Both the position numbers and the translations under genes were made by a program. This document shows, one piece after another, positions 6,739 to 51,213 of a DNA stretch of 64,000 bases. This DNA is from a virus. How positions within the stretch are numbered: the first letter of the stretch is position 1; the number at the start of each line of letters is the position of its first letter. The notes beneath the pieces were generated by a model. The model worked only from the letters and a program-made list of their open reading frames with translations. It made no database searches and was not told the DNA's origin. The stretch spans positions 1 to 64,000 of IMG/VR virus record IMGVR_UViG_3300050343_000281. One strand, given 5' to 3'.

Positions 6739-6817
6739 TAAAATTCTCCCTGTTTCACAGACGATCTTTTTATATAATATCATTTTATTTAAAAAAAATC
6801 AAAGGTGAGGGTAAGAT

Positions 6818-7201
6818 TTATTTTAAAGTTGTTATTTTACCTTTTGGTTTTTTTTGTAAAGAGTCAATATATTTTAATACCTCTTTAACTTCTTCTTTAC
6901 TTATTTCATGTTCTGGCATTATAGTAGGTTTGTATAATTCATAGACCTTAACTGCAGTTTGGTCTGGCTTTTCATAGCCTTCCTCTTCTTCGTCTCCAAA
7001 AATCATGCCTTCTGGGTAATTTATAAACTTTACTATCCAATCAACATCTCTTCTTTTAGATAACTCAGCTAAGTCTGGACCTATTTTATCACCTTCTCCA
7101 ACACTATGACAGGCTGTACAGTTTTGATTAAAATAATTTTTACCATTAAAAGCAAATACTTGATTTGTTAAAATAATATACAAAAAAATAAAATATTTCA
7201 T
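6818..7201 (-). CDS. c-type cytochrome (class I-like), exported
   Basis: 127 aa. A cleavable Sec signal peptide (MKYFIFLYIILTNQVFA) is followed by a mature domain beginning FNGKNYFNQNCTACH, with the haem-binding CxxCH at 28-32. The context GDKIGPDLAEL is typical of small class I cytochromes c, and PTIMPEH at 92-98 gives the distal axial Met95, followed by a C-terminal helix (KEEVKEVLKYIDSL). AAAGGAG lies just upstream of the ATG. The protein should act in the periplasm after haem attachment by the host system, shuttling electrons. It is an unusual phage gene and sits in the replication operon near exported proteases and a rhodanese. Confidence 0.88.
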   Translation of the reverse strand: MKYFIFLYIILTNQVFAFNGKNYFNQNCTACHSVGEGDKIGPDLAELSKRRDVDWIVKFINYPEGMIFGDEEEEGYEKPDQTAVKVYELYKPTIMPEHEISKEEVKEVLKYIDSLQKKPKGKITTLK

Positions 7202-8886: not shown

Positions 8887-9123
8887 TTATCTCCGTAAAT
8901 TCAAGTAACTTCCACCATTTTTTGAATTAACTAAGTTATTTTTTATACAAATAAATAATGCTTGCCCAGCTCTTTTTCCAGACCTACAAACTATGGTTAC
9001 ATTAGTGTCTTTATCCAGAGTTTTTATATAATCTTCAAATTCTTCTAAAGGTACATTTATAGATCCTTCAACATGGCCTTGTTCAAACTCTTCTTTACTT
9101 CTTACATCTATTACTAAACTCAC
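8887..9123 (-). CDS. Rhodanese-domain sulfurtransferase-like protein
   Basis: A minimal rhodanese domain (78 aa). It begins VSLVIDVRSKEEFEQGHVEG, continues SINVPLEEF, and carries the active-site loop CRSGKRA with Cys46. I chose the GTG at 9123 because AGGAG precedes it and it follows the upstream stop by one base. A longer frame reaching 9204 would overlap the primase gene in another frame. Single-domain rhodaneses transfer sulfane sulfur to thiol or cyanide acceptors. The role in a phage is unknown. Confidence 0.85.
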   Translation of the reverse strand: MSLVIDVRSKEEFEQGHVEGSINVPLEEFEDYIKTLDKDTNVTIVCRSGKRAGQALFICIKNNLVNSKNGGSYLNLRR

Positions 9124-9124
9124 A

Positions 9125-10036
9125 TTATCTCCTAAAAATACTAGATCGCTTCTTTTTTGGTCTATTTTGTACTTTTTCTTCCTCTTTTCTCTTTTCCTGA
9201 CCATCTTTATAAGCCCTTTCTAGTAAATCCTCGTCATGAGCATCTAAGCTTTCAGGAGCTAATTCTTCAAATACTGCAGCTATATTCTGGAATGGTACAT
9301 TTTGTAGTGCTAATGTAAATATGAAACTGTTTGCTGAATTATGCCAAACTCCAGGAAGTCCTGTATTAGCTTCTCTAATGAAAAAATCTACTTGTTCTGG
9401 TATCTTTTCTCTAACTTCTCCGTATAAGGCTTTAACAATGTCCTCAACGTCTTCTCCTACTTCAATTGTATCTGAGTAGCTAAGTTTATTAAAAGTATCT
9501 GAGAGCTCAGGCTTAGGTTTTATGGGAGTATATAGGTTGCCGTCTATCCAAAAACCATCGTCCATTGTAGATCCATAGTAAAACCTCGCAAGGTCCTTGC
9601 ATTGTGAGTCTACGGGAAAGTATTCTGCTAATTTCATATAAGTTTCCTTATATTCATCAATATCGTATATAGCTCTTGAAAGAGGGAATATTAATCTAAA
9701 TTTATGATGAACTTCAGAATGACTAGTACTAGGCATACACAGTGCGCAAAGTTCCAACTTTTCTACTATTTTTTCAGCCTCATCTATAGTCATGCCGTCG
9801 TCTATATCAAACGCTATTAAATCTGTTTTTATAAAATCAGACTCTCTTCTATAATTTTCAAATATTAATGGACTCCAGGCATATTTAGTAATAATCTCTA
9901 TTAACTCGTTTTCGTTATCAAAAGAAATGGTCTTTGGATTATAAGGACTAGATGCAAATCTAGCATTTTTAACTTTTTCTTCCTTTGACTTAGGATGAGC
10001 TTTTGCTTTTGGGAATATAGAAAGTTTAATAGCCAT
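9125..10036 (-). CDS. Archaeo-eukaryotic-type (AEP) primase-like protein
   Basis: 303 aa. The AEP pattern is readable: motif I FDIDDG (D77, D79), motif II STSHSEVHHKFRLIFPL (103-119, His residues), and a downstream Asp in CKDLARFYYG (D148). The C-terminal region is helical and ends in a basic tail. It lies next to the DnaB-like helicase gene, so it most likely makes RNA primers for leftward replication. AAGGAAGGAG precedes the ATG. Confidence 0.8.
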   Translation of the reverse strand: MAIKLSIFPKAKAHPKSKEEKVKNARFASSPYNPKTISFDNENELIEIITKYAWSPLIFENYRRESDFIKTDLIAFDIDDGMTIDEAEKIVEKLELCALCMPSTSHSEVHHKFRLIFPLSRAIYDIDEYKETYMKLAEYFPVDSQCKDLARFYYGSTMDDGFWIDGNLYTPIKPKPELSDTFNKLSYSDTIEVGEDVEDIVKALYGEVREKIPEQVDFFIREANTGLPGVWHNSANSFIFTLALQNVPFQNIAAVFEELAPESLDAHDEDLLERAYKDGQEKRKEEEKVQNRPKKKRSSIFRR

Positions 10037-15107: not shown

Positions 15108-15578
15108 TTACTCCCATACAGGAATTAGTTTATCAGTATCCCATCTATCATTCAAGTATAATTTATACGCTTCATATACATTATCTACATGTTTGTAACT
15201 AACATTAAATTGCTGATTAGCCGCACAATTAGGCTTTTTAGTTAATCCATTGGATGGTATCAATTTTCTAGCCTGTAGTTTTATGTCTGAGTTTATAAAC
15301 TTAATAAAAGACTTATGTACTTTTCCTCTACGTTTTTTATATTCTAATGCTAAAGCTACCATATGATTCCATAACCATGTCCAATTTTCATAACTATGAG
15401 TAGCCCATAAAGTACTAGGATGATTTTTGTGAGTAGATTTATATGGAGCATGTCCTCCATTTTGTATTACTGCCGTTGAAAGCATTTGGCAACTTTCTAG
15501 TATCATTTTATTTACTCTTTTAGTATCTAAGTACTTAGCAGATTTTAAAGGACTTTTATCTGTAAAAAATATATTCAA
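15108..15578 (-). CDS. Pyrimidine-dimer DNA glycosylase-like protein
   Basis: 156 aa. The pattern MNIFFTDKSPLKSAKYLDTK, then KMILESCQMLSTA, YKSTHKNHPSTLWATHSYEN and a C-terminal YEAYKLYLNDRW resembles the phage protein family annotated as pyrimidine-dimer DNA glycosylases (Pyr_excise-like). The repair activity is inferred from family resemblance only. It lies in the recombination and repair block. Confidence 0.65.
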   Translation of the reverse strand: MNIFFTDKSPLKSAKYLDTKRVNKMILESCQMLSTAVIQNGGHAPYKSTHKNHPSTLWATHSYENWTWLWNHMVALALEYKKRRGKVHKSFIKFINSDIKLQARKLIPSNGLTKKPNCAANQQFNVSYKHVDNVYEAYKLYLNDRWDTDKLIPVWE

Positions 15579-15888: not shown

Positions 15889-16671
15889 TTAAAAACTGGA
15901 TAGTGTTTTAATAGTTAATGATCCGTTATAATTTGATCCACTTATATTATTACTTTTATATTGCAGTTGTCCATTATTGGTTATACTAAAATCAACTCCC
16001 GCATAACTTCCAGAAAAGTTATTTGATATGCTAAACTCAGATCCTTCTTTAATAACCCTCATCTCTCCTACTTCTGTAAAGTCTAAGTTATCAACACTTC
16101 TAGAAACATTGTAATGTAATATAGTAGATTTCAAACTAGAATCTATCAATGCTCCTGTAATGTTAGAAAAAGAAGTTATATTGTTTACTATATTAAAAGA
16201 GTCGACTAATAAATCTGAACTAGGTTCTACAACTTGCTCTTTTAATAACTTATAAAAAGAGCTATTGTAAAATAACAATTGTAAAGTGTTGTTTGATGCT
16301 ATGGTAGAAAAAGAAGTATTATCATTATTGTTTACAGAAACTTCTTCGCTAGAGGCATTATGTAAATTTAACAAATATCCACTATTTAAAGAAGAAGTTA
16401 GGGGTAGTTTTAAAGAAAATCCAGTACCTGTACCGACTATAATAAAGTTACTAGATAGATTTTGAGAAACTTCATAAACTCCATTATTTGAGGTAGTAAC
16501 TAGTGTCGGCTCAAAATAAATACTTTTTATATTTGTTAGACTATTACTACCCAAGCTTAAATCACCTTGCATTGTATCGCCTGATCTATTTACTTTTTTA
16601 TTATCAAGCTCCAATAATTCAGTATCGTCTGTCATTGCAGAGCTAATGAATTTCGGGTCAATTTTTGGCAT
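15889..16671 (-). CDS. Tail-fibre-like protein carrying the shared C-terminal tip module
   Basis: 260 aa, encoded on the opposite strand from all other structural genes. The N-terminus contains GDTMQGDLSLGSNSLTNIKS, a common fibre shaft signature. The last ~78 residues (GEMRVI, then NNFSGSYAGVDFSI and NNGQLQYKS) match the C-terminal module of proteins at 50401-51213 and 36369-37937, and more weakly 35876-36355 and 42416-44530. It may encode an alternative receptor-binding tip or a donor copy for recombination with the rightward fibres. Its leftward orientation suggests expression with the accessory genes. Confidence 0.75.
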   Translation of the reverse strand: MPKIDPKFISSAMTDDTELLELDNKKVNRSGDTMQGDLSLGSNSLTNIKSIYFEPTLVTTSNNGVYEVSQNLSSNFIIVGTGTGFSLKLPLTSSLNSGYLLNLHNASSEEVSVNNNDNTSFSTIASNNTLQLLFYNSSFYKLLKEQVVEPSSDLLVDSFNIVNNITSFSNITGALIDSSLKSTILHYNVSRSVDNLDFTEVGEMRVIKEGSEFSISNNFSGSYAGVDFSITNNGQLQYKSNNISGSNYNGSLTIKTLSSF

Positions 16672-17191: not shown

Positions 17192-17416
17192 TTATTTTCC
17201 TTTTTTTATCAATGATTTTAGCTCATCTGTGTTTACATTTATTTTTAAAATAGCTTCGGATAGTGTTAAGTTAGTAAGGTCTTTATTTGAAGTATACTCT
17301 GATACTATAAAACTTTGATCGCTTTTAACTAAATCAATTATATAATTTAAATTAACATACTCGCTAATTTTACGACTATATAACTTTCTATTTTTATACT
17401 TTATAATATTTTCCAT
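17192..17416 (-). CDS. Hypothetical protein (74 aa)
   Basis: A short basic protein whose ATG overlaps the stop of the NUMOD-like gene upstream. No motif recognised. Confidence 0.6.
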   Translation of the reverse strand: MENIIKYKNRKLYSRKISEYVNLNYIIDLVKSDQSFIVSEYTSNKDLTNLTLSEAILKINVNTDELKSLIKKGK

Positions 17417-18057
17417 TACTTAATCTCCTCCTTTCTAACTTTATACCCTTCTTTATTTTTAGTTTTCCCTTGGGAATAGTGAATTATACTAGTTTCTGAT
17501 ACTCCAATAGCTTTTCCAGCATCCTTAGCACCTATGAATTTTCCTATTTCTTTTCCAGCTTTTGTTACGATAAAATAAAATCTTTTTTTGTTTTTAGTAA
17601 CTAGTTTTCTATCTTTTTTATTCTTTAACTCTTCTCTTTTTATTAAGATGGGTAATCTTTGCCTACCCCCCGTATTTTTTACTTGCTCGCTATTTCTTTT
17701 CATTATATTTATAATAGTTTCTTTGCTTACTTTTAGCTTATCTGCTATTTCATTCATACTATAAGCTTCTGCTAATAAGCTCCCTTTCGGACAAGTTGCT
17801 ACATATTTGTAAAACTTTCTTCCACCAGAATATAGATCTTCTTTAGATCTTCCATCAACTACAGGACATAAGTCTATAACTTCCTCTTTTTCATTTATTA
17901 ATATTTTTCTAAAACCAGAACCAATGGGTTCTAATACTTCTACCAAATCATCTTCTTTATGTCTTTCTTTTAGTCTAATCTTGAACAACTCCTCAAACTG
18001 CTTTACATTTGCAGGAATCATGTTATCAAATTTTTTTATTTTATCCGCTATGTTCAT
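17416..18057 (-). CDS. NUMOD-like helix-turn-helix DNA-binding protein, copy 1
   Basis: 213 aa from the ATG at 18057 (AGGGA upstream). Two DNA-binding modules are visible: SMNEIADKLKVSKETIINIM with a following basic region, and a C-terminal NUMOD1-like repeat (KEIGKFIGAKDAGKAIGVS, then SIIHYSQGKTKNKEGYKV). Such modules normally flank HNH or GIY-YIG homing endonucleases, but no nuclease motif is present. It is a paralogue of the protein at 19428-20048, with shared DNMI/KILIN/YKY landmarks. Probably a regulator or a remnant of a mobile endonuclease. Confidence 0.72.
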   Translation of the reverse strand: MNIADKIKKFDNMIPANVKQFEELFKIRLKERHKEDDLVEVLEPIGSGFRKILINEKEEVIDLCPVVDGRSKEDLYSGGRKFYKYVATCPKGSLLAEAYSMNEIADKLKVSKETIINIMKRNSEQVKNTGGRQRLPILIKREELKNKKDRKLVTKNKKRFYFIVTKAGKEIGKFIGAKDAGKAIGVSETSIIHYSQGKTKNKEGYKVRKEEIK

Positions 18058-18064
18058 AAGATCC

Positions 18065-18244
18065 CTATTGTATGCTTTCGCTGTCAATGCTAATTTCATT
18101 ATCGTCAAGCTTTTCCAATTCTTTTTCAATTTTTTGTACGATATTTACAGACTTCTCATAATTTTTTTTAGACATTGCTAAATCATAGTCTGATAAAAGA
18201 TTATCAATAGTACTTTCAATTTTTGTAATTTCTTTTAAATTCAT
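18065..18244 (-). CDS. Small coiled-coil protein (59 aa)
   Basis: Starts MNLKEITKIESTIDNLLSDY after GGAG. An earlier in-frame ATG at 18268 is less well placed. All helical and acidic; no family recognised. Confidence 0.62.
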   Translation of the reverse strand: MNLKEITKIESTIDNLLSDYDLAMSKKNYEKSVNIVQKIEKELEKLDDNEISIDSESIQ

Positions 18245-19427: not shown

Positions 19428-20048
19428 CTAACTACATTTATCAGAAATTCTTTTGACCGTATAACCATTTTTGTTTTTTATTTCGCCTCTTAAATATCTA
19501 GCAAGGGTATTTAACCCAACTCCAATTTTATTAGCTGTTTCTTTTTGTCCATAAAATTTTCCAATACTTTTACCTTTTAAAAATACTTCATATAAATGTT
19601 TTGGTTGCTTTGTTTTATTTTCTATCCTTTCTTTGTCGCTCATTAGTATTTTTTCTATAATAAAATCTTTACTTGGGCGACCTCTAAAATTCTTTTCTTT
19701 TGTTTCATTTTTTAGTAAATTTTGTACGGTAGATGTACAAATATTTAACTTTTTTGCTAAACCTTTTAAGGTATAGTCTATTGCTAATAAAGTACCATCT
19801 TTGTTACTAGCTTGATATTTATATCCTTTTTTCTTAAAATCAACAGGTTTCTTTTTTGCGTTGTTTATATCTAAAAATATTATATCTTTATTGATTAGTA
19901 TTTTTCTTTTTCCATCTGGCATTAAATTTAATATTTCTACTATACTTTTTTTTGAATATCCTTTTACTTTTATATTGAATATTTTTTCAAAAAATAGTAA
20001 AGAATTATCTAGAGAATTATCAAATCGTAGTATTTTTTGTCCTATCAT
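19428..20048 (-). CDS. NUMOD-like helix-turn-helix DNA-binding protein, copy 2
   Basis: 206 aa from the ATG at 20048, which has AAAGGA at correct spacing. Layout parallels copy 1: an N-terminal domain with FDN and KILIN landmarks, a central HTH (LKGLAKKLNICTSTVQNLL), and a C-terminal NUMOD1-like repeat (KGKSIGKFYGQKETANKIGV, then YLRGEIKNKNGYTV). No nuclease residues are seen. It lies immediately upstream of the promoter at 19385-19413, so it may act locally. Confidence 0.72.
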   Translation of the reverse strand: MIGQKILRFDNSLDNSLLFFEKIFNIKVKGYSKKSIVEILNLMPDGKRKILINKDIIFLDINNAKKKPVDFKKKGYKYQASNKDGTLLAIDYTLKGLAKKLNICTSTVQNLLKNETKEKNFRGRPSKDFIIEKILMSDKERIENKTKQPKHLYEVFLKGKSIGKFYGQKETANKIGVGLNTLARYLRGEIKNKNGYTVKRISDKCS

Positions 20049-20057
20049 TGTCATCCT

Positions 20058-20656: not shown

Positions 20657-21661
20657 TTAAACCTCACTTAGATCATACTTACTAAATAATTTCATAACAC
20701 TCCCATATAGTTCTATTTGATCATTTGTATAGTCATTTTCTTTACCTATTTCTTTATAGTCTTTTAACCAATCTTTATAAGGTAATACTTTACATCCTAT
20801 CTTAAAATAATGTTCGTTATCGTAATAAAAATACACTAATAAATCTTTTTCCCCATTAAAAGACATTATACCTTTTGCCTCATTTAAGTTTGCTCCACGT
20901 AATTCTGCCTCACCTAAGTTTACTCCACTAAAGTCTGCCCAACGTAAGTCTGCCTTACGTAAGTTTGCTCCACCTAAGTTTGTCCCACTTAAGTTTGCCT
21001 CACGTAAGTCTGCTCCACTAAAGTTTGCCTCATTTAAGTCTGCTCCACTAAAGTTTGCCCCATACAAGTCTACCCCACCTAAGTCTGCCTTACGTAAGTT
21101 TGCCCCACGTAAGTCTGCCTTACGTAAGCTTGCCCCACCTAAGTTTGCTCCACCTAAGTTTGCCCCACGTAAGTTTGCCCCACTTAAGTTTGCTCCACTT
21201 AAGTCTGCCTTACGTAAGTTTGCCTTACCTAAGTATGCCTCATACAAGTTTGCCCCACGTAAGTCTGCCTTACGTAAGCTTGCCCCACCTAAGTTTGCCC
21301 AACGTAAGTTTGCTCCACCTAAGTTTGCCCCACGTAAGTTTGCCCCACCTAAGTTTGTTTTATTTAAGTTTGCCTTACCTAAGTATGCCTCATACAAGTT
21401 TGCCCCACTTAAGTTTACTCCACTTAAGTTTGCCCAAAACAAGTTTGTCCCACTTAAGTTTGCTCCACGTAAGTTTGCCCCATACAAGTTTGCTTCACGT
21501 AAGTTTGCCCCACTTAAGTTTGCTCCACTTAAGTCTGCCTTAAGTAAGTTTGCTCCACGTAAGTTTGCTCCACTTAAGTCTGCCTTACGTAAGTTTGCTC
21601 CACGTAAGTTTGCCTCACGTAAGTATGCTTTAGGTTCTATTTTATAATTATATACTATCAT
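20657..21661 (-). CDS. Pentapeptide-repeat protein (right-handed quadrilateral beta-helix)
   Basis: 334 aa. From about residue 12 to 265 it consists of roughly 50 tandem A(N/D)LxX pentapeptides (for example ANLRGANLRKADLSGANL). A non-repeat C-terminal domain of about 70 residues follows. Pentapeptide-repeat proteins fold as DNA-like beta-helices; some (Qnr, MfpA) bind DNA gyrase. The coding DNA is a visible 15-bp tandem repeat array. A role in protecting or modulating gyrase, or in another host interaction, is inference. Confidence 0.93.
   Translation of the reverse strand: MIVYNYKIEPKAYLREANLRGANLRKADLSGANLRGANLLKADLSGANLSGANLREANLYGANLRGANLSGTNLFWANLSGVNLSGANLYEAYLGKANLNKTNLGGANLRGANLGGANLRWANLGGASLRKADLRGANLYEAYLGKANLRKADLSGANLSGANLRGANLGGANLGGASLRKADLRGANLRKADLGGVDLYGANFSGADLNEANFSGADLREANLSGTNLGGANLRKADLRWADFSGVNLGEAELRGANLNEAKGIMSFNGEKDLLVYFYYDNEHYFKIGCKVLPYKDWLKDYKEIGKENDYTNDQIELYGSVMKLFSKYDLSEV
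20870..21640 (-). repeat. 15-bp tandem repeat array inside the pentapeptide gene
   Basis: About 50 imperfect copies of a 15-bp unit (plus-strand form AAGTTTGCYCCACYT) in register with the five-residue coding repeat. Such arrays expand and contract by recombination or slippage, so length variation between isolates is expected. Plus-strand frames through it are only mirror images of the repeat. Confidence 0.9.
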
Positions 21662-28283: not shown

Positions 28284-28634
28284 ATGAGTGATTATAAAGA
28301 TGTTGAATACGAAATATCTATATTAAAGGATAAAATACTCCAATTAGAATCAGAAAATCAAAAAATGAAGCAGGTTATTTTAGATAACGAGCTTGAGAAT
28401 GAAATTGATGGCTTAGATGCTATATCTGAAGAAGAGTATATTTGTGTAAAGGGTATAGGACATTTAAAAAAACTATTTGAAAATGGAACATTTACTAAAG
28501 ACGATACTCAACAATTAGACTTACTTATAAAAAACCTTAGAATGATACGGGGACAAAGTAGTAAAAAAGCTAAAGGCAAAAGACTAAAAACAGAAGATGT
28601 AGCAGAGTTATTTAGTATAGTAAAAGGTAAATAA
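28284..28634 (+). CDS. Putative small terminase subunit or packaging accessory protein (116 aa)
   Basis: N-terminal coiled coil (ISILKDKILQLESENQKMKQ), then a helical domain with DLLIKNLRMIRGQSSKKAKG. It overlaps the large terminase start by one base, the usual place of TerS. The assignment is by position and size, not by motif. Confidence 0.55.
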   Translation: MSDYKDVEYEISILKDKILQLESENQKMKQVILDNELENEIDGLDAISEEEYICVKGIGHLKKLFENGTFTKDDTQQLDLLIKNLRMIRGQSSKKAKGKRLKTEDVAELFSIVKGK

Positions 28635-30097
28635 TGTCTAAAGAAGAGCAAAAAAAACTTGCGGCTAAGCATAAACTATGGAGAATGGGAGAATTAAGCT
28701 GGAAGTTAAAAGGAAAACAAGAAGATATATATAAAAACATGAGAGAAACTACTCATGATGTATCTTGTATATTGGTATCTAGACGTTTTGGTAAATCTTT
28801 TACAAACTGTCTTTTAGCAGTTGAAACTTGTCTTAAAAATCCTAATGCTATTGTTAAATATGCTTGTCCTAAGCAAAGAATGGTTCAAACTATAATTAAA
28901 CCCATAATGCGTGAAATATTTAAAGATGCCCCAGAAGAGTTTAATTTATCTGATATGTGGAAAGCTAATGATAAAGTATACCAATTTCCTAACGGATCAG
29001 AAATACAAATAGCGGGAACTGATAATGGTAATGCCGAAAACCTACGTGGTGGTTATGCTCAGTTGCTCATATGTGACGAAGCTGGATTTATGGACGATTT
29101 AGACTACGTAGTAAATTCTATACTACTTCCTACCACAGATACAACAGATGGTAAGTTAATTCTTACATCTACTCCAAATTATAAAGATCCTCAACATGAA
29201 TTTCATACAGAATTTGTATTCCCTCTAGAAGCAGAAGAAAGGCTTATAAAATATACTTTATATGAATCTCCAATGGTAGATGAAGATAAAATACAAAAGA
29301 TTATATCAAGATACCCTGGTGGAGCAGAGAATCCTAAGTTTAGATGCGAGTATCTTTGTGAGATACCTAAATTAACAGAAAACACTGTAATACCTGAATA
29401 TGGCTATAATAAACATGAGATCGTAATAGATGATGTAGCCCTTCCAGATCACTTTGATGCCTACGTAGCAGCAGATATTGGATTTAGGGACTTAACCGTA
29501 GTTTTATTCGGTTACTATGACTTTATGAACGCTCAGTTAGTTATATTAGATGAACTAGTAATGAACGGTCCAGAAATGACTACTGACGAACTAGCTAAAA
29601 GAATTAATCAAAAAGAAGAACTCAGATTTCATTTAGATTCTATTAACATGCCAGTAGCTCCGTATTTACGTATTATGGACAATGATTTAAAGCTTATAAA
29701 TGACTTAGTTAGGCTACATAATATTCATTTTATAGCTACTAAAAAAGATAATAAAGAAGCTCAAATTAACCAAGTTAGGTTGTGGGTACATCAAGGTAAG
29801 ATTAAAATTCATGAAAGATGTAAACATCTAAGGTATCATTTAGAAAATGCACAATGGGATAAGCATAGAAAATCTTTTATACAATTAAAAGATACTCCTA
29901 ATGGAGAAATTAGAGGAGGCCACTGTGATGCTCTTGACGCTCTTATATATCTAGTTAGAAATGTTAATGAAGGTAGAAATCCTTTTCCAGAAGATTATAA
30001 TAAATTAAGAGGACCAGGAATATTTAAAAGTCTCCATAAACCTAAAGAATCAAAATTACAGGAACTTATGGATACTATCATGGGAAAGATAAAATAA
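28634..30097 (+). CDS. terL: Terminase large subunit (ATPase-nuclease)
   Basis: 487 aa, typical TerL length. The ATPase has an atypical Walker A SRRFGKS (49-55), a Walker B LLICDEA (D148, E149) and a coupling LTSTPN (177-182). The C-terminal RNase H-like nuclease shows ADIGF (D281), IMDND (348-351) and HCDALDAL (D432/D435). It cuts and translocates concatemeric DNA into the procapsid through the portal encoded just downstream. Confidence 0.95.
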   Translation: MSKEEQKKLAAKHKLWRMGELSWKLKGKQEDIYKNMRETTHDVSCILVSRRFGKSFTNCLLAVETCLKNPNAIVKYACPKQRMVQTIIKPIMREIFKDAPEEFNLSDMWKANDKVYQFPNGSEIQIAGTDNGNAENLRGGYAQLLICDEAGFMDDLDYVVNSILLPTTDTTDGKLILTSTPNYKDPQHEFHTEFVFPLEAEERLIKYTLYESPMVDEDKIQKIISRYPGGAENPKFRCEYLCEIPKLTENTVIPEYGYNKHEIVIDDVALPDHFDAYVAADIGFRDLTVVLFGYYDFMNAQLVILDELVMNGPEMTTDELAKRINQKEELRFHLDSINMPVAPYLRIMDNDLKLINDLVRLHNIHFIATKKDNKEAQINQVRLWVHQGKIKIHERCKHLRYHLENAQWDKHRKSFIQLKDTPNGEIRGGHCDALDALIYLVRNVNEGRNPFPEDYNKLRGPGIFKSLHKPKESKLQELMDTIMGKIK

Positions 30098-30161: not shown

Positions 30162-32251
30162 ATGAAAGACAGCGTTTACTTTGCTGCAGATACATCTGAA
30201 AAAGCTGCCAGTTACTTACAACACAAAACCAAAGAATGGTTTCAAAACATAAGTGTAAACAACTATCTAAATAAAATCAAAAAATCATGGGCTGCTTATC
30301 ATGGAAATTACTACGCTAGTAGTCATGAAATAACCTTTGGCGGGGAACAAGGAGAGCTTGTAAACCTAGCCGTAAATCACTATTCCAACCTATGTACTCA
30401 CATGCTTAATATGGTAACTGGGTCTCGACCTAGTTTTCAATGTAGGGCAATTAACACTGATAGAAAATCTAAAATCCAAGCTGAACTGGGTAATGGACTA
30501 CTAGAATATTATATGCGTGAAAAAAGACTAGAGCGTAATATAAAAGCTGCTGTAGAATATGCTATTGTATTAGGATCTGGTTTTGTTAAAATGGAATGGA
30601 ACGCTACTAGAGGCGAAATAAGTGATTATTTAGATATAAGTCCAGAAGATATTGCATCTTTTGATGAAGAAGGTAATCCATTAGACGAAGATGGAAATAT
30701 GCTTTCTCCCACTCCAATATACGATGGTGACGTAGATTTTTACACACTATCTCCTTTCGATGTCGCATTTGATCCAACTAAAGAAACTCCAGATTTACAT
30801 GAATGGGTAGTTATTAGAACTTTTGTAAACAGGTACAATCTTAAAGAAAAGTATCCTGAGTATGCAGAAGAAATTATGAGGATTGGAACTAAAGACACTC
30901 AAAATTCAAACAATAGAATATCTCTAACATCTTTTAGTAAAACTGATGATATACCAGTATATGAATTATATCATAAAAGAACTGAAGCTTGTCCAGAAGG
31001 TAGATTTATGATGTATCTTACTAGCGATATAGTATTAGAAGATACTGACATGCCTTATAGAGACTTACCTATATTTAGAATAGCTCCTAGGAACGTACTA
31101 GGGACTCCTTTTGGTTATACATCTATGTGGGATATTTTACCACTCCAAGATGCTGTTAATAGTCTTTATTCTACAATAATGACTAATAATAACGCTTTTG
31201 GGGTGCAAAATATTCTCAACCCACAAGGAAACAATCTAAAAGTTAATCAACTAGAAGGTGGGCTAAATTTTATAGAATATAATCAAACAGTTGGGAAACC
31301 AGAACCACTACAACTTACATCTACTGCTCCAGAAACTTATAACTTTTTAGGAATGTTAGAAAAGACCATGGAAACAGTTTCTGGCATTAACTCAGTAGCT
31401 AGGGGTAATCCTGAATCTAGTTTAAGATCCGGTACTGCATTAGCACTAGTACAATCTCAAGCTTTACAATTTATGTCAGGACTACAACAATCTTATATTC
31501 AATTATTAGAAGATGTAGGAACTGGATTAATTAACATATTAAAAGATTTTGCAGATGCTCCAAGAATTGCAGCAATTGCAGGAATATCAAATACCAGTAA
31601 AATGGTAACATTTAAGTCTGAGGATTTAGAAGCAATAAATAGGGTTGTAGTTGATGTCGGTAACGCACTCGCACAAACACCTGCTGGTAGAGCGCAAATT
31701 GCAGAAAATCTTCTTCAAATGGGGTTAATTACTACTCCAGAAAGATACTTAGAAGTACTAAATACTGGTAACTTGAAAACAGCAACACAAGGAATTACAA
31801 GCGAATTAGATACTATAAATTCAGAAAATGAAGCATTATTAAAAGGACAGAGTGAAGTCATTGCTATTGCAACAGATCACCATGCCATGCACATTAGAGA
31901 ACACAGATCTGTACTCTCCGACCCTGCATTAAGACTTGACTCAGAATTAGTAGCCAGGACTCTTGCTCATATTAATGAACATATCAGACTCCTTCAAGAA
32001 ACAGATCCTAACTTACTATCCATCATCGGGAGCAGCCCCTTGCTCCTCCTGGTGGATCTCCTATTAATCCTCAACAACAAGGCGGTATGCCTGGTGCTCA
32101 AGGTGCTTCTGCTCCATTACAAGGAACTCCAATGACTCAAGCAATGCCTGGTATGCCTAGTCCTGCTCAAGCTCCTGATATATTAGGACAAGGGCAACCT
32201 CAAACTCCTGAAGAATTACTGGCAATGAATTTAGGTGGAGGTAACTTCTAA
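30162..32251 (+). CDS. Portal protein (P22-like size), C-terminus reached by -1 frameshift
   Basis: In frame 0 the protein is 657 aa, and its last ~35 residues (LLLLVDLLLILNN...) are out of character. In the -1 frame, open from 32012, the sequence reads APPGGSPINPQQQGGMPGAQ and continues Pro/Gly/Gln-rich to LLAMNLGGGNF, ending at 32251 where the next ATG overlaps (TAATG). The switch is best placed at CCCC (32036-32039), inside a GC-rich hairpin GGGAGCA/TGCTCCT. This means either programmed -1 frameshifting or a lost base. The body (DVAFDPTKET, LYHKRTEACPEGRFMMYLTS, then DSELVARTLAHINEHIRLLQ) fits a dodecameric portal of the P22/podovirus type. Confidence 0.85.
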
Positions 32252-34463: not shown

Positions 34464-35747
34464 ATGGCTGATATTGGAAACGCTCTACCAGGGGTAGAAA
34501 ACGCTCAAAGTTCACTAAACGGATTATTTAAAGAAATTTACAACCAACTTAAGGACTTAGTACCTGCTAATACTAAAATGGCAGATATGATTCCTTTCGC
34601 ACCAGGAGACAAAGAACTAGGTGCTGCTTATAACGAGCCAGTAGTTCTAGGTTTAGAAGGTGGTGTAAGTTATGGTGGATCTGACGGAGAAGCTTTCGCA
34701 TTAAGAACTCCAAGTTCATTTACACTTAAAAACGCAAGAGTAAAGTCTGTAGAAATGGTATTAAGATCTGCAATTTCTACTGCTGTAGCTTCAAGATCTC
34801 AAAACTCTAACGGTGCTTTTGAAAGAGGTATTAAACTTCTTACTGGTAATATGATGAAATCTATGTACCACAGATTAGAAGTATCAATGCTTTACGGACA
34901 ACAAGGAATTGCTGTTGTAGAGTCTGTAGCTGGAACTGGTCCATCTGTAATTAAAGTAGAAGATCAAGAATGGGCTGCTGGTATTTGGGTTGGAACTACT
35001 AAGCACAAAATAGAAGTATTTAGTGCAGATTTAGCTACAAAAAGAGCTGAATTAACTATTTCAGGATATGATATTGGTGCTAAAACAGTAACTGTTATAG
35101 AAGATGCTTCTACATTACAAGCTACTGACGTAATCTTCTTTTCTGGTGCTGCTGAAGCAGGAGCTGTTCACAAGGATATGCTAGGTCTTCACAAAATCGC
35201 TTCAGAAAGAGTTTCATTATTTGAAATTTCTAACGCTACTGAGCCACTTTTCCAAGGTAACATCGTAGATGTTGGTGAACTTGCTAACGCTGCTGTACTT
35301 TCTTTTGCTAAAGTAGAAGAAGCTGTTGCAAAAGCTGTAGAAAAAGGTCTTGGAGAAGAGCAAATGACTGTTATAGTTAACGTAAACTCTTGGAATGACT
35401 TACTTACTGAGCAAACTGCTAAGAGAAGATTTACTTCTGACTACTCTTCTAAAATCAAAGAAGGTTCTAGAGCAATTGAATTTGAAGGACAAGCTGGTTC
35501 TATCAAAATTGTCCCTTCTACTTACGTAAAAGAAGGATACGCTTACGCTTTTTGTGAAAAAGATCTAATCAGAATCGGCTCTTCTAACATTACTTTTGAT
35601 CCAAAAGGATACGAAGGTGAATTTTTCAGACTACTAGATAACCACTCAGGTTACGAAATTAGAGCATACTCTGATCAAGCTCTTTTCTCTAGTAGACCAA
35701 GCTGTATTACTGTATTAAGGTACATTAAAAACGCTACACACGCATAA
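34464..35747 (+). CDS. Major capsid protein
   Basis: 427 aa, following the scaffold gene; strong ribosome site (AGGAGAAT) and codon use biased to GCT/GGT/AAC-type codons compared with neighbours, as expected for the most abundant protein. The sequence (FKEIYNQLKDLVPANTKMAD, SYGGSDGEAFALRTPSS, MYHRLEVSMLYGQQG, CITVLRYIKNATHA) fits an HK97-fold coat of podovirus type. It has its own late box, long leader and strong terminator, so it is a separate transcription unit. Confidence 0.93.
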   Translation: MADIGNALPGVENAQSSLNGLFKEIYNQLKDLVPANTKMADMIPFAPGDKELGAAYNEPVVLGLEGGVSYGGSDGEAFALRTPSSFTLKNARVKSVEMVLRSAISTAVASRSQNSNGAFERGIKLLTGNMMKSMYHRLEVSMLYGQQGIAVVESVAGTGPSVIKVEDQEWAAGIWVGTTKHKIEVFSADLATKRAELTISGYDIGAKTVTVIEDASTLQATDVIFFSGAAEAGAVHKDMLGLHKIASERVSLFEISNATEPLFQGNIVDVGELANAAVLSFAKVEEAVAKAVEKGLGEEQMTVIVNVNSWNDLLTEQTAKRRFTSDYSSKIKEGSRAIEFEGQAGSIKIVPSTYVKEGYAYAFCEKDLIRIGSSNITFDPKGYEGEFFRLLDNHSGYEIRAYSDQALFSSRPSCITVLRYIKNATHA

Positions 35748-36368: not shown

Positions 36369-37937
36369 ATGCCAATCGTAAGAAAACGTCATATAAAAGG
36401 GATTAATCTAGATCCAGTTGATTTAACCTTAGATTCGTTGAATAAAGAAGGTGATTTAGCTTTAGATTCTAGTGATAGTAAATTAAAATATAGGGATGGA
36501 TCTGCTACTAGAACAGTAGTAAATACAGACGAAGAGCAAACATTTTCTAATAAAAATTTAGATAATACTAATACAGTAAATTATGAAAACTTAGCAATTG
36601 GGACAATAGATCCTTTACAAAAGGACATGGCTGATGTAGATAATGTAGCAGATGCATTAGATGCTATTAGAGTTTTAATAGACGGACAAGATCAGGCTAG
36701 TGAGATAGGTTATACTATAAAAACAGGTACTGGAGATAATTGGAACTCTTTTATAGACGAAGAAATTACTAAAGTAGATTTAGCTTTAGATGAACTAGCG
36801 TCTAGAGTTACTGCTAATAAAGAAGATATTATTTCAGATGGACAAGCATTACAAAATCACTTAAACAATGCTACAGGTGCTCACGCTGCATCTGCAATAT
36901 CAAGTGTTGCTTCTGGTAATTTAACTGCAACAGACGTACAAGCTGCTTTAGATGAGCTACAATCAGATGTAGACACTAGAGCATTAGCTGATATGGGAAC
37001 TATAACAAATGCTACTATACAAGACGCTTCTATAGAAAGTCCTATTAGATTGGACGTAAAAAAAGATGAGCTAACTGATTTAGAAACATATGCTACTACT
37101 GCTTCTGATGGGCAAATAGTATTTGCAACAGATACTAAAAAAATGTTTCAAGTTATAGACAATGTTTTAGAACCTATTGGAGCAGGTGGAGCTACTCAAT
37201 TTGAAGTAGATCAAGTTGCACATGGACTTTTAGTAGGATCTGGTGTTTATTACAATGGTACTTCTAATCAATGGGAAACAGCTCAAGCTGATAGTGCAGA
37301 TACTTTAGCTACATATGTAGTAATTGAAGCTTCTACGGATAAATTCGTAGCTGCAGACTTTGGGAGAGTAGAAGTTAGTTTACTTACCAATCCTTATTCT
37401 TTAGCTGCAGGAAATGAACTATACCTTTCTGAAGATATAGCTGGACAGCCTACTACAACAGAACCTAGTATTTTTTCTAATCCATTGTTTTATGTAGAAT
37501 CTTTAGATGCAACAGATCCAAATAACCAGTTAGCAATATTACAAGTTAAAGTATATAGGCCAGAATCTGTAGAAGCAGATGAACTATTTCCTGAAATATC
37601 ACAAACTATTTTAGATAATCAATCTGATGTATCAGTAAATGGAATAGCCTTAAATACTGCAGTACATAGAGGACTATCTTTATCTTATTCTCTTTTTAGA
37701 ACTAATGATGAGGGATTAGAAGTAGCTCAAATTGGACAGCTAAGAATAGTTTATAAAGTAGATAATGTTTCTATGAGTAATGTATTTTCTATATCAGACG
37801 ACTTTGCAGGAGATGATTCTGGAATAGAGTTTAGTGTAGATGCTAATGGTCAGGTTCAATATACTAGTTCTGCTTTAGGTGGTACTAGCCCTACAGGAAT
37901 ATTGAAGATAAAAGGATCAGAAGTATTCTTTCAATAA
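36369..37937 (+). CDS. Tail fibre protein (522 aa) with shared tip module
   Basis: The N-terminus IKGINLDPVDLTLDSLNKEG, then KLKYRDGSATRTVVN is a typical fibre attachment opening. The middle contains HLNNATGAHAASAIS and DVQAALDELQSDVDTRALAD repeats common in fibre shafts. The last ~95 residues (GLSLSYSLFR, IGQLRIVYKV, DDFAGDDSGIEFSV, NGQVQYTSS) form the shared tip module. Likely receptor-binding. Confidence 0.82.
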   Translation: MPIVRKRHIKGINLDPVDLTLDSLNKEGDLALDSSDSKLKYRDGSATRTVVNTDEEQTFSNKNLDNTNTVNYENLAIGTIDPLQKDMADVDNVADALDAIRVLIDGQDQASEIGYTIKTGTGDNWNSFIDEEITKVDLALDELASRVTANKEDIISDGQALQNHLNNATGAHAASAISSVASGNLTATDVQAALDELQSDVDTRALADMGTITNATIQDASIESPIRLDVKKDELTDLETYATTASDGQIVFATDTKKMFQVIDNVLEPIGAGGATQFEVDQVAHGLLVGSGVYYNGTSNQWETAQADSADTLATYVVIEASTDKFVAADFGRVEVSLLTNPYSLAAGNELYLSEDIAGQPTTTEPSIFSNPLFYVESLDATDPNNQLAILQVKVYRPESVEADELFPEISQTILDNQSDVSVNGIALNTAVHRGLSLSYSLFRTNDEGLEVAQIGQLRIVYKVDNVSMSNVFSISDDFAGDDSGIEFSVDANGQVQYTSSALGGTSPTGILKIKGSEVFFQ

Positions 37938-45922: not shown

Positions 45923-46111
45923 ATGGCTTGGAGATTTGATCCACAAATTATAGATATAGTATTTGTTCAAAATCCAGATCAAATTCAGGCTAGCGGTTCT
46001 ATTGATTTTGGAGAAGACATTACTTCAGATATATCAATTGATACTGGAGATAGAACTAATGATACCTCCATACTAGATCAAGGCGAGAGAGTAATAGATG
46101 GCAATATTTAA
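45923..46111 (+). CDS. Small acidic protein (62 aa)
   Basis: Asp/Ser/Thr-rich with no motif; overlaps the next gene by 14 nt and follows the previous stop by one base, so it is clearly in the same operon. Confidence 0.6.
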   Translation: MAWRFDPQIIDIVFVQNPDQIQASGSIDFGEDITSDISIDTGDRTNDTSILDQGERVIDGNI

Positions 46112-46475
46112 AGTACCTAGAATAACAACATCTCAAAGGCAGAATCTAATTCTTCAAATTGGAGAAATAGTTTATGATACTGACCAAGATATTTTTTATG
46201 GAGGAGATGATGAAACTTTAGGTGGATTTACTATAGGTAAAGGTGCTGGAGATGTCGTAGAACGTATAGAATTAGAAGAAGAAAATATATTTAACAAATT
46301 TGTAACACTAGGAGATACTCCTGTAATATCTCAAAACGTAACTGTTACTCCAGAAGGCGGAATAACTCAAGTTAACGGCATAGACTTTAGAGTAGTAGGA
46401 AATACTATTAGATGGGATGGCATGGGACTTGATGGAGTTTTAGATAAAGACGATTCTTTAATAGTACAATATTAA
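46098..46475 (+). CDS. Fibre-tip-like small protein (125 aa)
   Basis: N-terminus FKVPRITTSQRQNLILQIGE, then IVYDTDQDIFYGGDDETLGG is a fibre attachment signature. The C-terminus VTVTPEGGITQVNGIDFRVV, then GNTIRWDGMGLDGVL resembles a small beta domain found at phage fibre ends. It directly precedes the haloperoxidase gene. Confidence 0.7.
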   Translation: MAIFKVPRITTSQRQNLILQIGEIVYDTDQDIFYGGDDETLGGFTIGKGAGDVVERIELEEENIFNKFVTLGDTPVISQNVTVTPEGGITQVNGIDFRVVGNTIRWDGMGLDGVLDKDDSLIVQY

Positions 46476-46498: not shown

Positions 46499-46518
46499 TT
46501 AAACCAAAAGGAGTGTGT

Positions 46519-48045
46519 ATGAAAAAAAACACAAAAGACATCAAAGATTCTGTATTAAAAACCAGAATTAAACAGGCTAATAAAAGAGCCAAAGAAGTAG
46601 AAGCTTCTCAAGGGAAAAGTGATGATATAGTTAATGATAACTATGCAGCACTTTATTCTAAAGGACTAGCTCACGATTCTACTACTATGTTAGCAAGTGA
46701 AGCTGATATTAAAGAGATCCAAATTGCATTAGAAACTGGAGAACAATCTGATTTTGACGACATTAAACTTGTAGGAGCTAGAAAACAAGCTTCTCCTCAA
46801 GGTTCTTTATCTTCAGAAATTTCTGGTGGAGATCCAGAAGGATTTTCTATGAAAAAAGCTCCAGCTCTTGATTCAAGAGAAGCTGCTGCTGAAATGGCTG
46901 AAGTTTATCTTAAAAACATAATGAGAGACAAGCCATTTAAAGATTACGAAGATGGTTCTCAAGAAATTCAAGATGCTTTAGATATTCTTAATGCATTTGG
47001 AAGTGATTTTTTAGGACTAAAAGAAAACGGATCAGTAACTCCTAAAACTCTTTTTAGAGGAACATCCCCAGGATGCTCTGTTGGCGGATACGTATCTCAA
47101 CTGTTTCTTAATGAAATTGGAGTAGGTAATTTTTCTTATGAGCCAAAAGGACCAACTAAAACTGGAATCTATGGAAATACTAAAGCTAATTATTTACAAA
47201 TCCAAAACGGTAATGTACCAGTATCTCAAACTGTTGATTCAGTTAAAAAATGCATGTTTAACGGTAGACAACTTGGTTCTACAGTTCACATTGACCTAGT
47301 TTTTCAACATTTCTATGAAGCTGCTGCTATTCTTTTAAATGCAGGTGTAGGAGCTGGTGCTCAAGTTAAGGTTGGAGCTAAAGAAGGTAACTTTTTAGGC
47401 GGACCAGTATTACTTACTACTGCAATTGCTGAAGTATCTAGACACGCTCTAAGAGCAGCTTGGGTACAAAAGTGGAGAAAAAACCAAAGATTAAGACCAG
47501 AAGCTATGGCTGCAAGAGTTGTTGCTGAAAAAGCTGGAGATATTCCTTCTGGAACAGTACATGCTGATTTAATGTCAAGTGCTATTGTAGGAGCGGTTGA
47601 AGCTTTTAACGTAGCTAACAGTGGAGATAATGCAGCATTTTTACCTCTTCAGTATGCTGAAGGTAGTCCGACGCATCCTGCATATCCTGCTGGACACGCT
47701 ACAATTTCAGGAGCTTGTGCTACTATTCTTAAGATAATGTTTGCTGATGCAAATTGGTCGACTACTGGTCTTTCTGAAGTTCAAGGTAATAGTGATGGGT
47801 CTGTTGTAGAAGCTTATTCTGGCGCAGATGCTGGACAAATTACTATCCATGGAGAAATTGACAAATTAGCACATAACGTAGCTTTAGGAAGAGACTATGC
47901 TGGAGTGCATTACAGAAGTGACTCTGAATTAGCTCTTGGAGAAAAAGTAGCTATTCAATTTTACAAGGATCAAAAAGCACTTTTCAACGAAGAAGTTGAG
48001 GAAGTTACTTTTATTGGATTTGATGGTAATCCAATTACTGTATAA
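46519..48045 (+). CDS. Vanadium-dependent haloperoxidase family protein
   Basis: 508 aa from the ATG at 46519 (AAAAGGAG 5 nt upstream). The vanadate-binding pattern of the PAP2/haloperoxidase fold is readable: KWRKNQRLRPEA (K318, R326, with the eight-residue spacing of algal bromoperoxidases); PTHPAYPAGHA (384-394, catalytic His393); and GRDYAGVHYR (R458, vanadate-ligand His464). The Ser of the usual PSGH is Ala391. Family members oxidise halides with hydrogen peroxide to hypohalous acid, and some relatives are phosphatases. No signal peptide. Its location between two fibre-type genes suggests a virion-associated enzyme (inference). Confidence 0.87.
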   Translation: MKKNTKDIKDSVLKTRIKQANKRAKEVEASQGKSDDIVNDNYAALYSKGLAHDSTTMLASEADIKEIQIALETGEQSDFDDIKLVGARKQASPQGSLSSEISGGDPEGFSMKKAPALDSREAAAEMAEVYLKNIMRDKPFKDYEDGSQEIQDALDILNAFGSDFLGLKENGSVTPKTLFRGTSPGCSVGGYVSQLFLNEIGVGNFSYEPKGPTKTGIYGNTKANYLQIQNGNVPVSQTVDSVKKCMFNGRQLGSTVHIDLVFQHFYEAAAILLNAGVGAGAQVKVGAKEGNFLGGPVLLTTAIAEVSRHALRAAWVQKWRKNQRLRPEAMAARVVAEKAGDIPSGTVHADLMSSAIVGAVEAFNVANSGDNAAFLPLQYAEGSPTHPAYPAGHATISGACATILKIMFADANWSTTGLSEVQGNSDGSVVEAYSGADAGQITIHGEIDKLAHNVALGRDYAGVHYRSDSELALGEKVAIQFYKDQKALFNEEVEEVTFIGFDGNPITV

Positions 48046-48098: not shown

Positions 48099-50342
48099 AT
48101 GGCACAACAATTAAAGAAGAAGTTTATTGCCGACAACGCAGTTGACGGTGATAAAATCAAACTACTTAAAGATCAGTCTTTAGAAATTGAAAATCAAGCT
48201 GGTCAAGTAATTAGCTTGTTACAATTAAATGCTTCTGATGAAGTTCTTATTAAAGGCGAAGCTGCTGCTACAAGAGCTTACGTTGATCAAGAAGTTAGTG
48301 CAGAAGAGACTAGAGCAATGGCTGCTGAAAGTGTTTTACAGGGCGAAATTAATGCAGAAGAAGTAGCTAGAATTGCTGCAGACTCTGCTTTACAAGATGC
48401 TGTAGATGCTGAAGTAGCTGCAAGAATTGCTGCTGACGATGTTTTAGATACTGCAATTAGTGCAGAGCAATCTAGAGCACAAGGCGAAGAAGCAAGAATT
48501 GAAGGTAAAGTAGATCAAGAAGTAATTGATAGAGCTGCTGCTGATACCACATTACAAGGTAATATAGATGCAGAAGAATCTAGAGCACTTGCTCAAGAAG
48601 CTGCTATCAGAGGCGAATTTGCTGCTGCTGATACTGCACTACATACTACTATTTCTGCAGAAATTGATGCAGATGTTTTAGTAGAAACTCAAAGAGCACA
48701 AGGTGAAGAGTCTAGAATTGAAGGTATAGTAGATCAAGAGGTTCTTGATAGAGCTGCTGCTGATACTACATTACAAAGTGCAATTGATACTGAAAAAAGT
48801 AGAATTGATGCAATTTTATCAGCTTCTACTGCAAATGCGGACAGTTTCAAAGAAATTGTTGACTTAATCAATTCAGTTGATACTGCAAACGATGACGCTT
48901 TTGCTGCCTATGTACTATCTAATAACGCTGCATTAGCTGCTGAAGTATCAGCTAGAGGGACACTAGAAGGCGAATTTGATGCTTACGTAATTTCTAACGA
49001 TGCTGCATTAGCACAAGAAGTTAGTGATAGAGCTGCTGACGTAAATGCAGAAGAAACCAGAGCACTAGCTGCTGAAGGTGTTTTACAAGGTAATATTGAT
49101 TCAGAAGCTGCTTCTAGAGCTGCTGAAGATCTATTAATGTTAAAATTAGATGGGTCTAGACCAATGGGGGCTGCTTTAGCTATGGGATCTTTTAAGATTT
49201 CAGGAATGGCAGACGGTTCTGTTGCTTCAGATGCTATTAATAAAGGTCAATTAGATGCTGCAATCGCTGGAGCTGCTTCAGACGTAACAGCTTTAGAAAA
49301 TGAGTTAACTCAAGAAATTTCTGACAGAGAAGCTGGCGACGCTGCTATAAAAGGTGTTCTGGGAGGAATGGAAGCTTATACTACTATTAAAGCTCTAAGT
49401 GACGCTGTAGAAGCTGAAGAGTCTGCTAGAGGTACTTTAGAAGGCGAGTTCGATGCTTATGTTATATCTAACGATGCTGCATTAGCACAAGAAGTTTCTG
49501 ATAGAAGTGCATTAGAAGGGGAGTTTGACGCTTATAAAATCTCTAATGATGCGGCTTTAGCTGCTGAAGTATCAGCTAGAGAAACTTTAGAAGGTGAGCA
49601 TGACGCTTATGTTATCTCAAATAATGCTGCATTAGCACAAGAAGTTTCAGCCAGAGGCTCTGCTGACAATACGCTACAAAGTAACATTGATGCTGAAGCA
49701 TCAGCTAGAATTGCTGCAGACGTTGTTTTACAAAGTGCAATTGACACTGAAAAAGGTAGAATTGATACTATCTTAGATATGTCTACTGCAGATGCGGACA
49801 GTTTCAAAGAAATTGTTGACTTAATCAATAGCGTAGATACTGAAAATGATAATTTATTTTCTGGACATGTAACAACTTATAACGCTTATGTTACTGCAAA
49901 CGACGCTAGAGTTTTAGCTGTAGAAGGCGAAGTTGATACTCTTCAGTCTGAAATGAGTGCTGTAGAAGGTAGACTTGATATAGTTGAGCCAAAAGTTTCT
50001 ACTCTAGAAATGGAAATGGACGCTGTAGAAAACAGAGCTACTACTTTAGAAGGTGAAATGGACTCTGCTGAAGGAAGATTAGACGCTATTGAAGCTGAAG
50101 TTTTCCATAAAGAGCAGTTTGTTCTTACTCAAATTCAAATAGACGCTCAAAAAGTAGTTCTTTCTAATGCTCCACAAGCTAACTCTGTAGTAGCTTTTGC
50201 GGGTAGACTAGCTCTTCACGAAGGTGCTGCTCAAGATTACGAAATGTCTGGTTCTGATTTTCAATTCAGAGGAGACATTGCTACAGCCGGAGTTTCTGCT
50301 CTTGTAGCTGGAGATGTTATTACTATAGTTTACTACAAGTAA
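48099..50342 (+). CDS. Long repetitive tail fibre protein (747 aa)
   Basis: Mostly tandem coiled-coil repeats of the AEETRALAAEGVLQGNID type, with longer duplicated blocks (FKEIVDLINSVDTAND near 250 and 568; EGEFDAYVISNDAALAQEVS several times). The C-terminal ~75 residues (SVVAFAGRLALHEGAAQDYE, then FQFRGDIATAGVSALVAGDV) form a small beta domain related in style to 46098-46475. Codon bias resembles the coat gene, suggesting high expression. Confidence 0.85.
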   Translation: MAQQLKKKFIADNAVDGDKIKLLKDQSLEIENQAGQVISLLQLNASDEVLIKGEAAATRAYVDQEVSAEETRAMAAESVLQGEINAEEVARIAADSALQDAVDAEVAARIAADDVLDTAISAEQSRAQGEEARIEGKVDQEVIDRAAADTTLQGNIDAEESRALAQEAAIRGEFAAADTALHTTISAEIDADVLVETQRAQGEESRIEGIVDQEVLDRAAADTTLQSAIDTEKSRIDAILSASTANADSFKEIVDLINSVDTANDDAFAAYVLSNNAALAAEVSARGTLEGEFDAYVISNDAALAQEVSDRAADVNAEETRALAAEGVLQGNIDSEAASRAAEDLLMLKLDGSRPMGAALAMGSFKISGMADGSVASDAINKGQLDAAIAGAASDVTALENELTQEISDREAGDAAIKGVLGGMEAYTTIKALSDAVEAEESARGTLEGEFDAYVISNDAALAQEVSDRSALEGEFDAYKISNDAALAAEVSARETLEGEHDAYVISNNAALAQEVSARGSADNTLQSNIDAEASARIAADVVLQSAIDTEKGRIDTILDMSTADADSFKEIVDLINSVDTENDNLFSGHVTTYNAYVTANDARVLAVEGEVDTLQSEMSAVEGRLDIVEPKVSTLEMEMDAVENRATTLEGEMDSAEGRLDAIEAEVFHKEQFVLTQIQIDAQKVVLSNAPQANSVVAFAGRLALHEGAAQDYEMSGSDFQFRGDIATAGVSALVAGDVITIVYYK

Positions 50343-50359
50343 TAGATATTAATTAAATT

Positions 50360-50382
50360 GGAGGGCTTTGCCCTCCTCTTTA
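50360..50382 (+). terminator. Intrinsic terminator after the long fibre gene
   Basis: GGAGGGC-TTT-GCCCTCC followed by TCTTTAT; a 7-bp GC-rich stem with a short T-tract. Confidence 0.78.
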
Positions 50383-50400: not shown

Positions 50401-51213
50401 ATGTTAACTATAAATGGAGATTTACAAAAAGGCTCAGAAGTAGAATTTGTGCTAAATCTAAACGATCTTCTAGCACATTCTAAAGTTTCTAGTGACGGCT
50501 ATTTTTCTAATCAAGGGATTTGGGATAAAATTCTTTTAAGTTATTCTAGTGTACCTGGACTTCAAAAAGAAGTATTAGTATTTAAAGATGTAGATCTTGG
50601 TATAGATAGTTCTGCAGATTTTGGAGTATTTTCAAATGCTAGGGATAGTTTTTTTATAAAAAGCTTAACAATTTTAGACAAACAAGGTGGATATTTACAG
50701 ATAAAAAGAGATGAGCTAACAGTAGCTGATTTTGACATTCATCTAGGAGACGCTCCATTAGAGTTTAATGGTTTTAGCGGAGTAGGGTCTAATGATGTTG
50801 AAATAAACTTAATAGATACTATTCAAAGTGATATTGTAACCCTTCAAAATGAAGTAAATACACTTAAACAAAGTCCTACAGCTCCTGGTAATTTAGTAGA
50901 CGCTGCTGAAATAACAAATAACCAAAGTGTTTTTGTTAACATAGCTGATGCAGTATTACCAGAAGGAACTAAAACTGCTATATTACACTATAGCGTAGAA
51001 AGATCTAATAGTGTGGATAGTTTTTTACAAATTGGAGAACTAAAAGTTGTTACCGATGGAACTAGTTTTTTTATAAACGATAGTTTTAGTGGTGATTTTG
51101 CTGGAGTAGATTTTAATATCACAAGCTCAGGTCAGATACAATATAAAAGCTCTTACATGGCTTCAATTAGCTATCAAAGTAAGTTGTATATTAAAATAGT
51201 ATCTTCTTTTTAG
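50401..51213 (+). CDS. Fibre protein with shared tip module (270 aa)
   Basis: The last ~80 residues (AILHYSVERS, IGELKVVTDG, DSFSGDFAGVDFNI, SSGQIQYKSS, IKIVSSF) are strikingly close to the end of the opposite-strand protein at 15889-16671. The N-terminal part is beta-rich. Probably one of several alternative adhesin tips. Confidence 0.78.
   Translation: MLTINGDLQKGSEVEFVLNLNDLLAHSKVSSDGYFSNQGIWDKILLSYSSVPGLQKEVLVFKDVDLGIDSSADFGVFSNARDSFFIKSLTILDKQGGYLQIKRDELTVADFDIHLGDAPLEFNGFSGVGSNDVEINLIDTIQSDIVTLQNEVNTLKQSPTAPGNLVDAAEITNNQSVFVNIADAVLPEGTKTAILHYSVERSNSVDSFLQIGELKVVTDGTSFFINDSFSGDFAGVDFNITSSGQIQYKSSYMASISYQSKLYIKIVSSF

Follow-up and report, generated by a model that had tools for sequence, protein, structure and literature searches.

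A vanadium bromoperoxidase-class gene carried in the late region of tailed phages

Vanadium haloperoxidases (VHPOs) of the kind considered here give off hypohalous acid in diffusible form and modify both signals and surfaces (PMC8407465). The closest described systems are the solved enzymes of Ascophyllum nodosum (1QI9), Corallina (1QHB, 1UP8, 7QVW) and Acaryochloris marina (5LPC, 8Q20-22). The pocket position that corresponds to residue 315 of the phage enzyme described below matters for chloride: the Corallina and Acaryochloris enzymes have Arg there, and those of Curvularia and Ascophyllum, which chlorinate, have Trp; in A. marina, substitution by Trp did not increase chlorination (PMC11871015). 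Phosphate is able to take the place of vanadate in the site, as seen in crystals (PMC11871015).

The phage genomes, phage families and literature searched yielded no haloperoxidase. Using three members of the phage clade described below as queries, tblastn against 50,697 phage records gave no match at E 0.01; a VHPO-like PHROG family was not found, and the matches in the viral structure library BFVD include no tailed phage with the VHPO fold. The sole other viral proteins found, also in BFVD, belong to Sylvanvirus, Hokovirus and Yasminevirus (E 1e-38 to 1e-26), giant viruses of protists whose matching proteins are annotated as uncharacterised or PAP2. No paper on a phage haloperoxidase was found in the literature searched, which covers few subscription journals, and earlier reports are possible.

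The window, i.e. the whole 64,000-nucleotide stretch of DNA analysed here, is part of a 74,400-base IMG/VR virus record. The record encodes a terminase, a portal, a capsid protein and a family A DNA polymerase, and is a tailed phage. The hints as to its host diverge: a Silvanigrella phage is suggested by terminase and capsid (26-32%), Flavobacterium phages by the DNA polymerase (47%). The relevant features of the window are the following:

28634..30097, + strand: terminase large subunit (phrog_2, 1e-37)
30162..32135, + strand: portal protein (phrog_156, 2.6e-28)
34464..35747, + strand: major capsid protein (phrog_14242, 1e-10)
46098..46475, + strand: small neighbour 5' of the VHPO gene, 125 aa, no family (ORF list, weak similarity)
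46506..46513, + strand: ribosome-binding site AAAAGGAG, 5-6 nt 5' of the VHPO ATG (sequence)
46519..48045, + strand: VHPO gene, 508 aa, vanadium bromoperoxidase-class (ORF list, homology, predicted fold)
48099..50342, + strand: fibre-type coiled stalk gene, 53 nt 3' of the VHPO gene (Pfam YadA_stalk 3.4e-07, above cut-off)
50360..50376, + strand: strong terminator-like hairpin, 3' of the fibre gene (terminator scan)

The VHPO reading frame is uninterrupted from its ATG at 46519 to its stop at 48045, and the opposite strand is closed. Together with a good ribosome-binding site and homology far beyond chance, this confirms the gene proposed in the initial annotation. No signal-like hydrophobic stretch was found in any phage VHPO protein examined. 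Twin-Arg signals are present in several of the nearest cellular VHPOs; since a signal is missing from other cellular VHPOs too, its absence is not specific to the phage proteins.

The late region occupies approximately 27.5 to 66.7 kb of the + strand of the record, and its last gene encodes a large protein whose C-terminus is endolysin-like. The VHPO gene had been described as lying near one end of this region; in fact it sits in the middle, between the capsid gene (34.5 kb) and presumed tail genes (51.7-58.8 kb), the latter assigned by gene order in the absence of a profile match. Its placement in the late operon beside a fibre-type gene holds, as the YadA_stalk gene follows on the same strand. 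Of the two fibre-type neighbours originally proposed, only this downstream one has profile support; the upstream one is the 125-aa frame, which is weakly similar to a gene three genes ahead of the VHPO gene in a podophage contig (L005). The downstream gene resembles fibre-like genes of two T4-like contigs (L010, L056). No terminator-like site was found on the + strand between the VHPO and fibre genes, and the two may share one transcript end.

Comparison with solved structures by phmmer aligns residues 40-493 of the window VHPO with Ascophyllum 1QI9 (2.3e-46), with further matches to Corallina 7QVW (3.8e-46) and Acaryochloris 5LPC (1.6e-45). A bacterial iodoperoxidase, next after the bromoperoxidases, matches at E 0.18. 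The profile of the phage family matches Corallina vanadium bromoperoxidase (VBPO) at 7e-71, and no usable family for the protein exists in PHROGs, NCBIfam or Pfam. An AlphaFold (AF2) model computed from 41 aligned sequences gave a pLDDT of 92.2 and a pTM of 0.92 (an earlier model from 4 sequences gave a pLDDT of 38 and was discarded). The best 12 Foldseek matches of this model are solved VBPO chains throughout (E 4e-32 to 1e-28, TMq 0.84-0.89), and the next class follows at E 3e-4 or above and TM 0.23. Full-length homology, a conserved vanadate pocket and the VBPO fold thus coincide, and within the limits of sequence and predicted fold the assignment to the algal/cyanobacterial bromoperoxidase class is settled. 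The earlier reading as a full-length VHPO-family protein of algal type is borne out by phmmer, AlphaFold and Foldseek alike.

The vanadate pocket is encoded in three parts, each located by alignment:

47461..47496, + strand: pocket part 1, W315, K318 and R326 (WVQKWRKNQRLR)
47665..47700, + strand: pocket part 2, SPTHPAYPAGHA, with H386 and A391-G392-H393
47887..47916, + strand: pocket part 3, GRDYAGVHYR, with R458 and H464 (vanadate-binding His)

According to the phmmer alignment, W315, K318, R326 and H386 correspond to Ascophyllum residues 338, 341, 349 and 411, and A391, G392, H393, R458 and H464 to residues 416, 417, 418, 480 and 486, which we take to be active-site residues of that structure. 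K318, R326, H386, A391-G392-H393, R458 and H464 fall where they had been placed initially. All nine pocket residues (W-K-R-H-A-G-H-R-H) are invariant across 13 phage proteins with identities down to 43%.

The Ser of the SGH motif is absent in the window VHPO (Ala391), which had been taken to suggest that the substrate is unusual or the enzyme a phosphatase. This argument does not survive the set of 41 aligned sequences, as Ala occupies position 391 in 36 of them and Ser is restricted to Saprospiraceae/Chitinophagales and one Acidobacterium. Since the solved A. marina enzyme likewise has AGHA, the Ser is not a defining feature of the bromoperoxidase class.

Among the closest systems, Ascophyllum 1QI9 shares with the phage VHPO the fold over residues 40-493, the K-R spacing of eight, both His, the Arg, and a Trp three residues ahead of the pocket Lys; it differs in that the phage-encoded enzyme is only 28% identical and has Ala at the pocket Ser. 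The A. marina VHPO is a full-length class match with AGHA instead of SGHA, but has Arg (R425) at the position of phage Trp315 and is about 150 aa longer. The Corallina bromoperoxidases are the best profile and fold matches, although the wild types carry Arg and Ser at the two variable pocket positions and are about 90 aa longer. All phage enzymes have Trp at position 315, from which we predict that the phage VHPO could oxidise chloride.

The survey of other phages suggested at the outset shows that the gene recurs near virion genes in several phage types. IMG/VR (2.9 million) was examined by protein-guided scans and a DNA pattern scan, which detect only those copies containing the selected peptides. 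VHPO genes were identified on at least 13 more phage contigs (L002-L011, L056, L058, L064), representing podo-, sipho- and T4-like phages; the gene is rare, with 14 phage contigs and a few more among the 2.9 million. In the podophage contig L005, terminase, portal and capsid genes lie upstream of the VHPO gene, which is immediately preceded by two fibre-like genes. The siphophage contig L002 has a head-tail adaptor 53 nt 3' of its VHPO gene, with a tape measure further along. Four contigs (L010, L011, L056, L058) are T4-like and show the order portal, prohead genes, capsid, VHPO, fibres, L058 ending inside the VHPO gene. The VHPO gene lies 1.4-1.5 kb past a capsid gene in L004 and L007, and the distance 3' of the capsid gene is 1.2-1.6 kb when L010/L056 are considered along with these two. 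It follows a transglycosylase and a spanin-like gene in L064. The neighbours in L003, L006, L008 and L009 are not clearly virion genes: in L006 a ClpP-like neighbour has matches both to head maturation proteases and to Clp protease, and in L009 the VHPO gene adjoins metabolic/stress genes, IMPDH and ClpX among them. In approximately 10 of the 14 contigs a head, connector, fibre or lysis-type gene is found no more than 2 kb from the VHPO gene, a count to which no probability is attached, as the contigs are non-independent and virion genes fill much of phage genomes.

Phylogenetic analysis with 37 cellular VHPOs places the phage rows on one side of a single branch (support 100/100), and 12 phage rows stay together when more viral rows are added (98/97). 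The phage VHPOs thus form one clade apart from all cellular VHPOs sampled. The window VHPO and that of the siphophage L002 are sisters (80% identical), to the exclusion of the podophage L005 (73%). Since the closest copy is that of a siphophage, and since the portal proteins of the window and L005 share just 23% identity, the comparison indicates that the gene moves between phage types. Estimates of dN/dS among phage VHPOs are 0.09-0.17, rough values with several dS near saturation, and indicate purifying selection.

Other VHPO-like or PAP2-like genes were seen on virus-classed contigs. A second VHPO clade (100/100), apart from the phage clade, occurs on L079, L080, L085/L060 and L090, contigs of 147, 152, 96 and 619 kb with GC of about 0.6 and local tRNA genes, which may be huge phages or mis-classed bacterial DNA. 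Two viral-classed contigs with GC of about 0.65 (L072, L088) carry VHPO-like genes that branch beside the phage clade, with a DnaB-like gene nearby in L072. Nine low-GC viral contigs (L066, L067, L070, L071, L074, L075, L077, L083, L086) encode small PAP2-like proteins of about 220-250 aa, mostly 228, with the motif HPAYPSGHA, a different group, probably of phosphatases.

The data are best explained by an intact VHPO that tailed phages have long carried and exchanged as one of the accessory genes in their late (virion) region. Regarding its role, we lean somewhat towards a late-made accessory enzyme that leaves with the progeny, in the virion or in the lysate, and makes hypohalous acid outside the cell. 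We infer its enzyme activity, activation outside the cell, virion attachment, target and substrate in the following scheme. The VHPO would be made late, together with capsid and fibre proteins, and, lacking a signal peptide, would exit with the progeny, attached to virions or free in the lysate. In surroundings that would offer vanadate, bromide and iodide but little phosphate, it would bind vanadate through H464 and use peroxide to oxidise halide to HOBr or HOI, perhaps HOCl, and the hypohalous acid would then oxidise whatever is near the particle or the burst cell. Surface modification, attack on matrix, interference with quorum signals and competition, as put forward at the outset, are candidate roles. 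Seawater contains vanadate, bromide and iodide and little phosphate, and a saline habitat is assumed for the record. Action outside the cell is favoured because making hypohalous acid within the cell that produces the phage would damage its progeny, and because the occupation of the vanadate site by phosphate in crystals fits inhibition in the cytosol. The location of the gene in L003, L006, L008 and L009, away from clear virion genes, and the rarity of the gene weigh against this explanation.

A stricter form, a virion-borne halogenating oxidase in several tailed-phage morphotypes that would generate hypohalous acid where the particle touches a cell or biofilm, seems to us possible but doubtful. 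The window VHPO is encoded within a virion gene cluster, and accessory genes also occupy such slots. In the jumbo phage PA5oct, which is related to the T4-like carriers, the interval between capsid and fibres holds a homing endonuclease and unknown genes, which are not marked as detected by mass spectrometry, whereas its portal, capsid and fibre proteins are; a series of small unknown genes occupies this interval in Vibrio phage 2.275.O. The argument that the neighbourhood proves virion incorporation is weakened by these two maps, and because the PA5oct slot also takes non-virion cargo, the place of the gene is by itself no proof that its product belongs to the virion.

The rival that survives best, although we regard it as rather unlikely, is an intracellular peroxide defence, by which the VHPO would consume H2O2 with halide late in infection and so protect replication or assembly. 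Algal VHPOs respond to oxidative stress (PMC8407465), the phage proteins lack a signal peptide, and some carriers place the gene by metabolic/stress genes, as in L009. However, the product inside the cell would be hypohalous acid, cytosolic phosphate would presumably compete for the vanadate site, and in most carriers the gene stands among virion genes. The same capsid and fibre neighbourhood might instead suit a structural or decoration protein built on an old enzyme fold without catalysis, but a pocket kept invariant in 13 divergent phage copies makes this improbable. We consider it highly improbable that the protein is a PAP2-superfamily phosphatase rather than an oxidase, although both belong to one superfamily, the profile comparison proposed initially gave a weak Pfam PAP2 match (0.013; 15.7 bits, below the gathering score of 27.2), and small PAP2-like proteins (~228 aa) occur in other viral contigs: acid phosphatases reach E 0.3 or above and TMq 0.18 or below in Foldseek, full-length matches are to VBPOs only, and about 450 aa of algal-type fold are retained, so that this reading was rejected on fold and length. 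A transient passenger or misassembled host gene, as the GC of 0.368 against 0.31 for the window might suggest, is barely credible and already largely refuted by a GC3 (0.145) equal to that of adjacent phage genes, tightly spaced neighbours, and a separate phage clade of 12 rows from several phage types.

Given a phage VHPO clade, halogenating enzymes could reach water and biofilms upon lysis, and signals, competitors, host surfaces and the production of halocarbons might be affected. The VHPO is also a concrete and readily assayed enzyme for asking whether phages use extracellular oxidative chemistry.

Several further genes of the record were observed. On the - strand of the window are a phage-encoded c-type cytochrome with a likely signal peptide (6818-7201, Pfam Cytochrom_C 2e-10), a rhodanese-like domain (8887-9204), a pyrimidine dimer glycosylase-like protein (15108-15578) and a long pentapeptide-repeat protein (20657-21661, Pfam 5e-89). 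Two early gene pairs on this strand are duplicated, 17416-18129 with 19428-20054, and 5205-5660 with 6307-6783, the latter with metallopeptidase-like motifs (HEIAHC/HEIGHC). Two ClpP-like proteases lie at 67.6-68.3 and 71.9-72.5 kb of the record (L065 11570-12331 and 15934-16503, both - strand); one of them has a likely signal peptide, and a gene resembling aminotransferases is nearby. Finally, a C-terminal module of about 80-120 aa is common to 36369-37937 (+), 50401-51213 (+) and 15889-16671 (-) of the window, the last carrier being on the opposite strand in the early region.
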